Source of the DNA: Candidatus Aenigmatarchaeota archaeon
Lineage (GTDB): Archaea; Aenigmatarchaeota; Aenigmatarchaeia; QMZP01
Reading direction: 5' to 3'
Assembly: GCA_016782405.1 (NCBI GenBank)
Contig: JADHYO010000003.1
Coordinates: 1-36,654 of the forward strand
DNA: 36,654 bases
Below, piece by piece: positions 2,419 through 34,278 of the stretch (its first letter is position 1; every line of letters begins with the position of its first letter). Below the pieces are notes generated by a model. That model worked only from the letters and a program-made list of their open reading frames with translations, did no database searches and was not told the origin of the DNA. The position numbers were made by a program, and so were the translations under genes.

Positions 2419-3036
2419 GTGAACAACCAAACTGTGTTTGTTGCGATTGTGATAATAGCAATTATTATAACATTTATTGGTTATTCTGGTCAGGACAACA
2501 TTGCTGGCAAACAGTACGCAGCAAAAACATATAACTGCCCTACCAGCATGGAGCTTTGCTATACAAACCCAGCAAAGGCTGGATCATATGAATGCACGTT
2601 CGACAGCATCAGCGGCAAGGGTTATGAGCCGTTTGATGGTTTTTATGTTTTCCTTAAACATTATTTTGGTATTGATGTCCCTGACGGGCACTGGGAAAGC
2701 GTAGCAAAGAATGCTTGCGATGAAGCAGAACAGATTTGCGGGAACAATCTGAAGGCAGCGCAAAAGGCTGTTAAAGACGCTAAAGAATCTTACGAACAAG
2801 AGTGCAAAGACCAGGGATGCAAAACACTTGAAGGTAAGGGTGTAAACAGCGGATGCGAGACTTGTGACCACAAGCGTGGTGGGGCTCACTGCAAACAGTC
2901 AAGTACAGGAGTTTCCTGTGAGGTTAATTCTGGGGCTGCTTCTTTATTGGACCACTGCATGCCTCCTGGGGTATTAAAGACGCCGGGTGATCCGAACCTG
3001 GTCTCAGGTGGCGAGGAAGAGCAGCCTGCCAACTGA
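2419..3036 (+). CDS. N-terminally membrane-anchored, Cys-containing hypothetical protein
   Basis: GTG start, a single hydrophobic N-terminal segment, about 14 Cys in the remainder; no family recognised. Confidence 0.55.
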   Translation: MNNQTVFVAIVIIAIIITFIGYSGQDNIAGKQYAAKTYNCPTSMELCYTNPAKAGSYECTFDSISGKGYEPFDGFYVFLKHYFGIDVPDGHWESVAKNACDEAEQICGNNLKAAQKAVKDAKESYEQECKDQGCKTLEGKGVNSGCETCDHKRGGAHCKQSSTGVSCEVNSGAASLLDHCMPPGVLKTPGDPNLVSGGEEEQPAN

Positions 3037-3470: not shown

Positions 3471-3669
3471 CCCTTAGGGGGTCTTTTCTTTTCATCCAGT
3501 TGACCATTTTTGCAATCTTGAAGAAGCCGCGGTCATAGAATGAGTCAAGGAATTTATTGTAGCAAAATCTGCAAAGGAATCCATTCACACCAGAATCAAC
3601 ACTACTGTCGCTTACTTTCACTTCAAAACGTTTCTCCACGATTTCCTTGCAAATAAGGCAGTGTTCCAT
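3463..3669 (-). CDS. Small Cys-containing protein (possible zinc finger)
   Basis: MEHCLICKEIVEK...GFLCRFCYNKFLDSFYDRGFF; two CxxC pairs. Start at 3669 preferred over 3780 because the upstream segment overlaps another Cys-rich ORF in a different frame. Confidence 0.5.
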   Translation of the reverse strand: MEHCLICKEIVEKRFEVKVSDSSVDSGVNGFLCRFCYNKFLDSFYDRGFFKIAKMVNWMKRKDPLRVI

Positions 3670-29897: not shown

Positions 29898-30350
29898 TCA
29901 CTTCTTCAGCAACCTCTTCAGCTCCTCTTGAAAAGATTGGATATCTGTGAATTCTCTGTAGACTGAGGCGAAGCGGATGTATGCAACCTTGTCTATACTC
30001 TTCAACTTCTTAACAACGAGGTCGCCGATTACTGAGCTTACCACTTCCTGGGACGGGCGCTTTCTCAGCTCATTTTCAACCTGATCCAGAAGCCTTTCGA
30101 TCTTTTCCTGTTTCACTGGGCGCTTCTCGCAGGCCTTCATTACACCCATCTTGAGCTTGCCCCTGTCAAACATCTCCCGCTTACCACCCTTCTTGATGAC
30201 AACAAGGTCCCCTACCTCCACGCGTTCGTAGGTGGTGAAGCGCTTTTTGCATGACAAGCACTCCCTTCTACGGCGTGTGGCTTTAACGTCAGGGGTTTCT
30301 CGCTTGTCAACAACCCTGCTTCCGTCATGGCTGCAGAACGGGCATTTCAT
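29898..30350 (-). CDS. nrdR: Transcriptional repressor NrdR (zinc ribbon + ATP cone)
   Basis: MKCPFCSHDGSRVVDKRETPDVKATRRRRECLSCKKRFTTYERVE...VYREFTDIQSFQEEL. Confidence 0.95.
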   Translation of the reverse strand: MKCPFCSHDGSRVVDKRETPDVKATRRRRECLSCKKRFTTYERVEVGDLVVIKKGGKREMFDRGKLKMGVMKACEKRPVKQEKIERLLDQVENELRKRPSQEVVSSVIGDLVVKKLKSIDKVAYIRFASVYREFTDIQSFQEELKRLLKK

Positions 30351-30751
30351 TCTAACCTCTTAACTGATTCCTTAATCCAGGAGGGGAAGTTTCCCTCCAA
30401 GATGGACTCTTTAGCTACCCAGAGGAAGCCTTCATGATCATCACTGAGCTTCAGCTCCCCGTTTTTTATGGTGCAGAGGAATACTGTCCCTACCACATGG
30501 AAATTTTCAGACCATGCTATGGTTACCACATGGACCGGTTTCTGCACGTCAACATCAAGATTGGTCTCCTCTTTAACCTCACACCTTAGGGCCTCTATGG
30601 GATTTGTCTCGCCAAATTCAATCTTCCCTCCTGGGATGTCATTTGCGTCAAAATCCTTGTGGACACTGTTAGGCTTCTTCAGGAGAAGGATTTTATTGTC
30701 CTTTATTACCAATGCTTTCACTGCAGGGAAGATATTCTGATTCATTCCCAC
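30347..30751 (-). CDS. Nudix hydrolase
   Basis: GGKIEFGETNPIEALRCEVKEETNLDV Nudix box; overlaps nrdR by 4 nt. Confidence 0.88.
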   Translation of the reverse strand: MGMNQNIFPAVKALVIKDNKILLLKKPNSVHKDFDANDIPGGKIEFGETNPIEALRCEVKEETNLDVDVQKPVHVVTIAWSENFHVVGTVFLCTIKNGELKLSDDHEGFLWVAKESILEGNFPSWIKESVKRLE

Positions 30752-31308
30752 ACCACTTCCTTACCTTTTTCTCTGTTGTTTACAATGCGGGCAAGTATGA
30801 AGAGGAAGTCTGAAAGGCGGTTGAAGTATTTTAGGATTTGGAAATTGACTGTTTCCATCTTGGCTGCCACTACCCTTCTTTCAACGCGGCGGGTGACTGC
30901 GCGGGCGTATTGCAGGGCTGTTGCTCCGGGGGTTCCTGAGGGCAGGATGAACTTGTTCAATGGGGGCAGCTCTTTCTCAAATTTCATAATGAGGTCTTCC
31001 ATTTTTTTTACTTCGTTCTCTGTCATTTCCTTGGTTCGTTTCAACCGCTCGGTCTGTCTTGGATCAAGTGTTTCCTGCTTTTTTATTGGGTTAGCTAAGT
31101 CAGAACCTATTAGGAGGAGGTCGCCCTGGATTTCCCTGAGGATTTCCCTTGCTTCTTTGTCCTTAATCAGTGAGACAGCCAGCCCAATAAGGGAATTCAG
31201 CTCATCCACTTCGCCAAAGGCTTCAACTAAGGGGTTGTCCTTTTTTACACATTCTCCTGCATAAAGGTATGTATGGCCGGAATCGAAATGGTCACTATAC
31301 TTCTTCAT
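30742..31308 (-). CDS. Cob(I)alamin adenosyltransferase, PduO/ATR type
   Basis: GHTYLYAGECVKKDNPLVEAFGEVDELNSLIGLA...ILPSGTPGATALQYARAVTRRVERRVV...YFNRLSDFLFILAR. Confidence 0.93.
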   Translation of the reverse strand: MKKYSDHFDSGHTYLYAGECVKKDNPLVEAFGEVDELNSLIGLAVSLIKDKEAREILREIQGDLLLIGSDLANPIKKQETLDPRQTERLKRTKEMTENEVKKMEDLIMKFEKELPPLNKFILPSGTPGATALQYARAVTRRVERRVVAAKMETVNFQILKYFNRLSDFLFILARIVNNREKGKEVVWE

Positions 31309-31349: not shown

Positions 31350-31706
31350 CTATGCTTTTTGTTTTATGCGCGCAAACCCATCAAAATGGATTTTTGAATC
31401 ATCAGGATTGAAGACCTCAACCACTTTGTATTTTCCTTTTGTGTGCAGCTCGTTGTCCAGCATGATATGAGTAGCTTCCAGGATAACAATGCTTGCCAGT
31501 GGGCGGGAAAGCTGGCTACCATCTGTTTCCAGGAGCGGGATTTCCCCCTCAAGGTAGTAATTGCGTTGGCCTTTCTTGAGAAATTCATGGACCTGACCGG
31601 CCTCAAGCCCTTCGGGGATGCACTCTTCCCTTTCCCTGCTTCCGGCCCGGAATTCAGAAATGTTCCGCAGTGCCAAGTCCGGATTGAATTCAACTTGTAT
31701 ACCCAT
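31350..31706 (-). CDS. Hypothetical protein
   Basis: MGIQVEFNPDLALRNISEFRAGSREREECIPEGLEAGQVHEFLKKGQRNYYLEGEIPLLETDG...; start at 31706 avoids overlap with the RNR gene. Confidence 0.6.
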   Translation of the reverse strand: MGIQVEFNPDLALRNISEFRAGSREREECIPEGLEAGQVHEFLKKGQRNYYLEGEIPLLETDGSQLSRPLASIVILEATHIMLDNELHTKGKYKVVEVFNPDDSKIHFDGFARIKQKA

Positions 31707-31737: not shown

Positions 31738-34110
31738 TCAGAGAAAGCAAGCTGAAAGTCCGCATTCTTTGCAGGTTGCGCAGCCTTCACCGAAGTCCAG
31801 GTTCTTTGATGTACATTCTGGACATTCTTCCCAACGCTTCATGTCAGCCTTGGTTATGGATTCTTGGCTGGCAGAGGGGTTGGGTTCTTGGCTGGCAGAG
31901 GGGTTGGGTTCCTGGCTCGCGGGGGGTTTGGGTTCCTGGCTGACAGTGGTTTCTGTGGATGGGATGACTTGGGGTTTAATGTCGCCGTTTTCCTCTGGGA
32001 TTGAATCTCCTGTTTTCATGACCTGGATTTTCCTACTCTTGTCGCGGTAGACAGTGCAACCCTTGCAACCGAGCTCCCAGGCAAGGAGATACCCGTTGGA
32101 GACGTCTTCCTTGGTTGCGGTGGAGGGGAAGTTTATTGTCTTTGTTATTGAATTATCCACATGCTTCTGGAACGATGCCTGCATCCTTATGTGGGCCTCT
32201 GCTGAGATGTCCAGGGCTGTGGCAAAGATGCCCTTGAGGTCCTGGGGGAGGTCCAGCTTCTGGACTGAGCCGCACGCCTTTGCCACAGTGCGCATCAGCT
32301 CTTCGGAGTAAAGCCCGCGCTTCTTGAGCGCGTCCTCAAAGTCATTGTTCACATAATAGAGGGTCTGGCCGCCCATTACTTCTGCCTTTGCAAATACTAA
32401 TGCAAAGGTTGGCTCAAGACCTGAGGAACAGTCAAACATCATTGAAATTGTTCCTGTGGGTGCGATTGTTGTGAGTGCTGCATTTCTCATTTTTATTCCC
32501 TTTTCCTTGTAAATGCTTTTGTCCCAGTTGGGGAATGGGCTTTTTTCCTTGGCCAGCTCCTGGCTCATTTTGTGGGCTTCTTCATTAACAATCCTCATAA
32601 CTTTGTCTGCTGCTTCAAGCCCTTCTTGGGAATCATACTTTATCCCGAGCTTGTGAAGCATGTCTGCAAAACCCATTATACCCAATCCTATTCTGCGGTT
32701 GCCGCGGAACACCTTGTTGACCTTTTCCACTGGGAATTCTGAGCGGTCAATTACATTGTCAAGCATCCTAACCGCGATTCTTGTCACCTCCTTCAGGCGT
32801 TCTGTGTCGATTTTTCCATCCTTTGCAAATGCCTTGAGGCTTATAGATCCTAAATTGCACACATCACCGTCGTGGAGCATCTGCTCACCACACGGATTGC
32901 ACGCTTCTATTCTCCCGAGACCGGGAAGGGGGTTGGACTTGTTCACTGTGTCCATGAATATTACACCAGGTTCGCCATTATTCCAGGCAGCTGTCACAAC
33001 TTTGTCAAAGAGTTCACGGGGGGTCATGTTTGCTTCCTTTATGTCAGTGATATTGCCATGCTCGTCCCTGCTAACATATCTGGGAAGCATCTTTTCTTTT
33101 CCAAAGGAGCACATCCAGGGGTTTGTATCGTCTGATTTGACTTTTTCCATGAACTCATCTGTAAGGCCTACAGAGATGTTGAAGTTTTTTATGTCACCCT
33201 CGACTGCCTTGCAGTTGATGAAGTCCATGATATCTGGGTGGTCAACTCGCATGACTGCCATGTTGGCGCCGTGACGACCTTGCTGTTTAATTACCCCGAA
33301 GGCGTTGTTGTAGACCCGCAAAAAAGAGACAGGCCCTGAGGCCTGGCCCCTTGAGCGCTTTGCTATACTTTGCGCAGGCCTCAGGAGGTGGAAAGGGAAG
33401 CCCAGCCCAGCCCCGGCCTGCTGGAGAAGGGAGGCGTCCTTGAGTGTTGTGAAGATGCCGTCCATGCTGTCCTCCATGTGGAGGACAATGCAGTTTGATA
33501 TTAGCGGGGTTGGGGCTCCGGCATTCGCAAGTGTGCGGCCTGCAGGGGTGAACTCAAAATTGAGCATCACATCCAGGAACTGCTTCCTGATTTTTTCAAT
33601 TTCCTCGTCGCTTTTATTGTAGTCTTTCTCCACCTCAGCCAAAGTCCTTGCCACCCGCCTGAACATTTCCTCTGGGGACTCTGCTATATTCCCGTCCTCA
33701 TCTCTGGCCAAGTAGCGGCCTGCCACCACCCTGAGGGCATTTGGGGAGAATGGAATCTTGGTTGTCCTGCCGTTTAGTATTTCCCTTTGGGTGGCCCTGA
33801 CTTCAGAGCGCTTCTGGCGATAGAGGATGTAAACCTTAGCTGTCTTTGCATGACCGTTGCTTATAAGAATGCGTTCAACCATGTCCTGAATCCCTTCTAC
33901 TGTGGGTAGTGTGTTTTTAGGTGTTTCTTTTTCAAGGGTTTCAACAACCTGTTCTGCCAGGTTCTCGGCCAGATTGCGATCCTTCCCTCCCACGGACTGG
34001 GCAGCCTTGAAAATAGCATTTATTATTTTTCCCTTGTCAAAAGCAACGACTATGTCATCACGTTTCTTTATCTTCTCTATCTTTGTTTTCTTTTCATCAA
34101 CACTTTCCAT
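31738..34110 (-). CDS. nrdJ: Adenosylcobalamin-dependent (class II) ribonucleoside-diphosphate reductase
   Basis: N-terminal ATP cone, NCIVLHMEDSMDGIFTTLKDASLLQQAGAGLGFPF, RIEACNPCGEQ, GLGIMGFADML, TIAPTGTISMM, C-terminal CPEC..CATCKECGLSACFL. MESVDEKK start at 34110 preferred over 34167. Confidence 0.95.
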   Translation of the reverse strand: MESVDEKKTKIEKIKKRDDIVVAFDKGKIINAIFKAAQSVGGKDRNLAENLAEQVVETLEKETPKNTLPTVEGIQDMVERILISNGHAKTAKVYILYRQKRSEVRATQREILNGRTTKIPFSPNALRVVAGRYLARDEDGNIAESPEEMFRRVARTLAEVEKDYNKSDEEIEKIRKQFLDVMLNFEFTPAGRTLANAGAPTPLISNCIVLHMEDSMDGIFTTLKDASLLQQAGAGLGFPFHLLRPAQSIAKRSRGQASGPVSFLRVYNNAFGVIKQQGRHGANMAVMRVDHPDIMDFINCKAVEGDIKNFNISVGLTDEFMEKVKSDDTNPWMCSFGKEKMLPRYVSRDEHGNITDIKEANMTPRELFDKVVTAAWNNGEPGVIFMDTVNKSNPLPGLGRIEACNPCGEQMLHDGDVCNLGSISLKAFAKDGKIDTERLKEVTRIAVRMLDNVIDRSEFPVEKVNKVFRGNRRIGLGIMGFADMLHKLGIKYDSQEGLEAADKVMRIVNEEAHKMSQELAKEKSPFPNWDKSIYKEKGIKMRNAALTTIAPTGTISMMFDCSSGLEPTFALVFAKAEVMGGQTLYYVNNDFEDALKKRGLYSEELMRTVAKACGSVQKLDLPQDLKGIFATALDISAEAHIRMQASFQKHVDNSITKTINFPSTATKEDVSNGYLLAWELGCKGCTVYRDKSRKIQVMKTGDSIPEENGDIKPQVIPSTETTVSQEPKPPASQEPNPSASQEPNPSASQESITKADMKRWEECPECTSKNLDFGEGCATCKECGLSACFL
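31861..31932 (-). repeat. 24-bp tandem repeat inside the RNR gene (about 3 copies)
   Basis: ttcttggctggcagaggggttggg at 31861-31884 and 31885-31908 (identical), diverged copy 31909-31932; encodes (P)NPSASQEP linker repeats. Confidence 0.9.
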
Positions 34111-34129
34111 TTGACACCACACATTCAAA

Positions 34130-34145
34130 ACACAATATTTTGTGT
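34130..34145. promoter_or_regulatory. NrdR-box-like palindrome 1
   Basis: acacaatattttgtgt, 20 bp upstream of the nrdJ ATG. Confidence 0.8.
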
Positions 34146-34161
34146 TCTGAGAACGAATAAA

Positions 34162-34177
34162 GCACAATATGTTGTGT
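34162..34177. promoter_or_regulatory. NrdR-box-like palindrome 2
   Basis: gcacaatatgttgtgt, 32 bp (about three helical turns) from box 1 start to start. Confidence 0.78.
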
Positions 34178-34278
34178 TTTCCTGATATTACTTAGTCCCA
34201 ATCCTTTATATTGATTTTTGTGATGTGGGATATATTTCCCAACAAGATGTTTCCAAAACTAATTTCTTAACAGTGTTA

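Follow-up and report, generated by a model that had tools for sequence, protein, structure and literature searches.

The nrdJ gene cluster

The window, i.e. the entire 36,654-bp stretch of archaeal DNA analysed here, carries on its minus strand a pair of palindromic boxes followed by nrdJ, a short open reading frame, an adenosyltransferase gene, a NUDIX hydrolase gene and nrdR, and then by the genes of an archaeal proteasome beta subunit and of aCPSF1. The nrdJ gene (31738..34110) encodes a 790-aa adenosylcobalamin-dependent class II ribonucleotide reductase (RNR) with an N-terminal ATP-cone (PF03477, PF00317, PF02867), and its match to TIGR02504 (NrdJ_Z) reaches 655.5 bits at a curated cut-off of 399.95. 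Fewer than 10% of class II RNRs are reported to have an ATP-cone (PMC11226230). No RNR other than NrdJ was detected in the genome of the window, which is 65% complete and fragmented. NrdJ has a tandem repeat, SQEPNPSA (window 31850-31960), in the linker that leads to its C-terminal CxxC segment. G031, G088, G141, G148 and other relatives have long RNR frames (1100-2100 aa) whose domain matches are split, which suggests inteins in many of these archaeal RNRs.

The 118-aa ORF between nrdJ and the adenosyltransferase gene (31350..31706, minus strand) is of unassigned family; it gave no Pfam or NCBIfam matches, and no tblastn matches in the analysed regions of the other relatives. The PduO-type cob(I)alamin adenosyltransferase (30742..31308, minus strand; TIGR00636, 169 bits) is expected to supply the cofactor of NrdJ, and its gene adjoins nrdJ in two other genomes as well (G123 and G128). 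The genes of the adenosyltransferase, the MutT-like NUDIX hydrolase (30347..30751, minus strand; PF00293) and NrdR overlap end to end, the last two sharing 4 bp.

The nrdR gene (29898..30350, minus strand) encodes a 150-aa repressor consisting of a Zn ribbon and an ATP-cone (TIGR00244, PF22811, PF03477). The protein matches TIGR00244 over its full length with 192.2 bits (curated cut-off 124.65) and the E. coli NrdR chains in the PDB with an E value of 1e-38. The zinc cysteines C3, C6, C31 and C34, which form two CxxC motifs, are intact and at positions identical to those of the zinc ligands of solved NrdR (PMC12176259). R12, D15, R17, R26-R29 and R37, the residues that contact DNA in S. coelicolor NrdR (PMC9110341), are also present at identical positions, i.e. 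as judged from its sequence the window protein keeps all the DNA-contact residues reported for Streptomyces NrdR. A preliminary description of the locus had placed a class II RNR gene and nrdR in one cluster of an archaeal host. All three assignments are borne out, by the TIGR02504 match above the cut-off, by the full TIGR00244 match and by the archaeal neighbours on the same contig, respectively.

A pair of NrdR boxes upstream of nrdJ

Read on the minus strand, the ATG-distal box 1 is ACACAACATATTGTGC (34162..34177; window letters GCACAATATGTTGTGT) and the ATG-proximal box 2 is ACACAAAATATTGTGT (34130..34145; window letters ACACAATATTTTGTGT). The spacer of 16 bp (34146..34161) puts the box centres about three helical turns apart, and a spacer of 15-16 bp is canonical for bacterial NrdR boxes (PMC12051234). 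The preliminary description had given the positions of both 16-mers and a start-to-start spacing of 32 bp, and these proved exact to the base; it had also put the boxes directly upstream of the nrdJ start, and there are 19 bp between the near box and the ATG (34110, minus strand). The window thus has the box arrangement of an NrdR regulon, in which an RNR operon is preceded by two palindromic boxes 15-16 bp apart.

The box pattern, with up to 3 mismatches, has 9 matches in the window vs 1.3 +/- 1.4 in dinucleotide shuffles of it, the largest count in 100 shuffles being 5. With the strict paired-box pattern the spaced pair occurs only once in the 625-kb assembly, and the reversed-pattern control gives no spaced pairs there. 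The pairs were also scored with a box matrix that was set by hand from the bacterial NrdR consensus and was not trained on these genomes. The window pair scores 36.3, the highest pair score among all regions scanned; the runner-up within the window reaches 13.9. Among the relatives the strict pattern is too stringent, as its only match besides the window pair is a site in G112 (L035), which adjoins unrelated ORFs and was taken as a chance match, not as an operator.

The region is AT-rich, so palindromes might have arisen in the intergenic DNA by chance, and in a fragmented, 65% complete assembly the contig might be bacterial and mis-binned. The shuffle tests and the single occurrence in the genome speak against chance, which is refuted in practice by the conservation of the boxes across many families (see below), and mis-binning is at odds with the archaeal proteasome beta subunit and aCPSF1 that the contig also encodes. 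The probability of either explanation is negligible.

Conservation of the operator

A set of 156 genomes of the phylum, mostly metagenome-assembled, was searched for NrdR, class I/II RNR and class III RNR, and NrdR was found above the cut-off in 68 of them. Loci around most of the NrdR and RNR genes were included, and for each start 250 bp of upstream sequence was scored for pairs with spacers of 15-17 bp, the significance being calculated against dinucleotide shuffles. Among the 110 testable genomes, the paired operator lies upstream of the RNR operon in 63 of the 77 genomes that have an NrdR Zn ribbon, and in none of the 33 genomes that lack it. Fisher's test gives 2.7e-17 for this co-occurrence, a value that is overstated as the genomes of the phylum are related and not independent. 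One of the 63 pairs, that of G125, is farther from the start (about -310) and was added to the count manually. The remaining 14 of the 77 genomes have no significant pair by this matrix, and several of them have one good and one degenerate box. Pairs scoring at least 20 are concentrated at the operon heads (43 in 67 kb vs 1 in the other ~728 kb), and the same operator layout is seen in a second archaeal phylum. Conservation of the boxes in relatives that carry nrdR, which the preliminary description had proposed as the test of its reading, is thus what the comparison of 63/77 with 0/33 reveals.

In the window (G000), G123 and G128 nrdR is not at the head of the operon, and in G084 and G085 it is located elsewhere; in all five the boxes precede the RNR gene, meaning that they mark the target and not nrdR itself. 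Another archaeal regulator that shares the motif could in principle read these boxes, and we found no binding data for archaeal NrdR in the open-licence literature. Nevertheless, the operators are confined to genomes with an NrdR Zn ribbon, either in a standalone NrdR or in a fusion, and the contact residues of NrdR are intact, which makes a different regulator very improbable.

Promoter and leader

In archaeal TBP/TFB promoters the TATA/BRE lies some 25 bp before the start site. Many relatives have a strong TATA/BRE-like element (GAAATGTTTATATA and similar) that starts 14-37 bp upstream of box 1. The candidate TATA element of the window, TCAATATA (34207..34214, minus strand), starts 37 bp upstream of box 1 and has A-rich sequence before it; it is a weak element, its score of 5.2 being below that of most relatives. 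The CAATATAAAGG element of the window is also seen in G084 and G085. The start site of the window is predicted to lie just upstream of box 1. Given the position of the TATA elements in the relatives, box 1 would cover or closely follow the expected start site and box 2 would lie in the transcribed leader, which suggests that NrdR probably prevents archaeal initiation, acting either at the start site or immediately after it.

As the boxes are downstream of the predicted start site and hence transcribed, the palindromes might alternatively act as hairpins in the 5' untranslated RNA, i.e. in attenuation or translation control, and the ATG-proximal box does form a hairpin in the predicted RNA fold. 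However, the leader fold is unremarkable (z -1.74), with 13 of 200 shuffles folding equally well. Being barely better than the shuffles, it does not favour an RNA-hairpin function. Moreover, RNA hairpins would not account for a pairing that is fixed at 31-33 bp, for the agreement of the boxes with the published NrdR consensus or for their strict dependence on an NrdR gene. We consider an RNA function a very unlikely alternative to a DNA operator.

Comparison with known NrdR regulons and proposed mechanism

NrdR has already been published for 'some archaea' (PMC9110341, PMC12051234) and is described as rare in archaea (PMC9110341, PMC12051234, PMC12176259). Haloarchaeal nrdR-nrdB-nrdA operons are known too, e.g. 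in Natronomonas pharaonis PL131 (PMC3019208). In other words, the operator reading of the preliminary description is supported but is less novel than it implied; from its sequence features, the window is a further archaeal case of the known NrdR regulon. How common NrdR is in these archaeal phyla is not stated in the literature that we found.

The window resembles the bacterial NrdR regulons (S. coelicolor nrdRJ, E. coli nrdHIEF and nrdDG) in the Zn ribbon plus ATP-cone repressor, in the two 16-bp boxes, 15-16 bp apart, that precede the RNR genes, and in the intact DNA-contact residues. The bacterial regulons are sigma-70 systems, whereas the window has a predicted archaeal TATA/BRE-type promoter, its boxes coincide with the predicted start site or follow it closely, and its operon adds the adenosyltransferase and the NUDIX hydrolase. 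The haloarchaeal operons share with the window an archaeal nrdR inside an RNR operon, but the RNR is of class I, and several of these operons are on plasmids and are attributed to transfer from bacteria (PMC3019208). On five haloarchaeal plasmids (L237-L241) nrdR (at 3001) is preceded by a conserved but degenerate pair of box-like sequences, CACCATATATTGCGG ... CCACATATAGGG at about -75 and about -44, which is much weaker than the window boxes.

ATP-loaded NrdR does not bind DNA, and with dATP plus ATP it forms a tetramer on two boxes about three helical turns apart (PMC9110341, PMC12051234, PMC12176259). The sequence evidence makes it highly probable that the 16-bp palindromes form a true NrdR operator and that the nrdJ operon is under dATP-dependent repression by NrdR. 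At high dNTP (dATP) levels, a tetramer of NrdR, encoded four genes downstream, would occupy both boxes, bend the DNA and, at the nrdJ promoter, keep the archaeal transcription machinery from initiating or from escaping. The nrdJ, adenosyltransferase, NUDIX hydrolase and nrdR genes would be shut down together as one operon, and the outcome would be dATP feedback together with autoregulation of nrdR. For the window itself, we infer NrdR binding, the effector response, the start site and the operon transcript. The suggestion that a bacterial-type repressor acts on an archaeal promoter is supported by the co-occurrence of operator and NrdR, by the archaeal neighbours and by the TATA/BRE-like elements.

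NrdR-NrdD fusions

About 20 relatives from two archaeal phyla have the NrdR Zn ribbon fused in frame to a class III RNR, NrdD. Thirteen genomes of the window's phylum carry both in one open frame. Type 1 fusions consist of the Zn ribbon, one ATP-cone and NrdD (n=11, nine genomes of the phylum plus L157 and L159 from elsewhere), and type 2 fusions consist of a complete NrdR and NrdD (four genomes of the phylum). The fusion architecture was confirmed by Pfam domains for P0003, P0004 and the G130 protein. Paired NrdR boxes lie upstream of the type 1 fusion at L051:1405-3684 (minus strand), of the in-frame fusion that starts at 3001 of L055 (plus strand), of the fusions in L157 and L159, and of the type 2 fusions at L054:3001-5571 and in L243-L246. 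The second phylum, that of L159 (34 genomes; L159 was deposited as Nanohaloarchaea), has 16 genomes with an NrdR Zn ribbon. In 6 of these 16 the Zn ribbon is in a frame of 630-841 aa and is the only one of the genome, and each of these six frames also encodes NrdD and is preceded by a box pair.

The fusions retain the Zn cysteines and the [DE]xR and RRRR motifs. In the tree of ATP-cones, a fully supported split divides the cones of NrdR from those of RNRs. The cones of all 11 type 1 proteins fall on the RNR side, and the first cones of the four type 2 proteins of the window's phylum on the NrdR side. In type 1 fusions, NrdR's own ATP-cone is absent and the activity cone of the enzyme is the only sensor. 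Fused and unfused genes are interleaved in the NrdD tree with moderate support, which suggests repeated fusion or repeated loss of the fusion.

A box pair was found upstream of 18 of the 20 fusion genes; the two counted as lacking it are those of G017, where the pair is weak, and of G119, where the NrdD part is divergent. A separate full NrdR was not found in the fusion genomes, most of which are incomplete. As the boxes vanish without the Zn ribbon and persist with the fusion, the fusion protein is the best candidate for the reader of the boxes, i.e. the fusions look like reductases that repress their own gene. The class III NrdD of Prevotella copri, in which dATP shifts the enzyme toward tetramers that bring four ATP-cones together (PMC11226230), shares with the archaeal fusions an ATP-cone, which in P. 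copri senses ATP/dATP. It has no Zn ribbon, whereas the archaeal fusions put the NrdR DNA-binding domain before the cone. By analogy, a dATP tetramer of NrdD would suit the placement of four Zn ribbons across two boxes. We lean towards the view that the fusion enzyme is its own dATP-controlled repressor, the inhibited dATP tetramer also binding both boxes.

In a Clostridia-centred sample of 200 genomes, 151 NrdRs were over the cut-off, and among the matches listed, all in frames of at most 289 aa, none was fused. NrdR-NrdD fusions thus look absent or rare around Clostridia. N-terminal matches in Lachnospiraceae and other bacteria were rejected as fusions because their NrdDs start at the ATP-cone, and loci of Treponema and Spirochaetes because their nrdR genes are separate. 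No description of NrdR-NrdD fusions or of DPANN NrdR was found in the open-licence literature.

Some related loci have unusual arrangements. In G119 (L046, minus strand, start 3399), a Zn ribbon and a cone are fused to a divergent NrdD-like protein of 637 aa in which the glycyl-radical RxxGY motif is not evident at the end; there are no boxes upstream, and the protein is possibly a regulatory pseudoenzyme. In G045 (L090, from 2998, plus strand) a complete NrdR is part of a 518-aa frame with a domain that, judged by eye, is DHH-phosphoesterase-like, and a high-scoring box pair lies inside this frame, at 3649. L158 (JAFCCF010000027.1), deposited as Candidatus Aminicenantes, has an nrdR-nrdD arrangement with an NrdD that is ~73% identical to the NrdD part of an archaeal fusion; mis-binning of an archaeal contig or a recent transfer is the likely explanation.

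As predicted from sequence, NrdR and its operators occur widely in two archaeal phyla and may provide a natural case of a bacterial-type allosteric repressor acting on archaeal basal transcription. With the fusions it would become testable how the ATP-cone came to control both the activity of RNRs and the expression of their genes, a question of long standing. In them, the single cone may serve both roles within one protein. If this is true, one nucleotide switch would stop both RNR activity and transcription.
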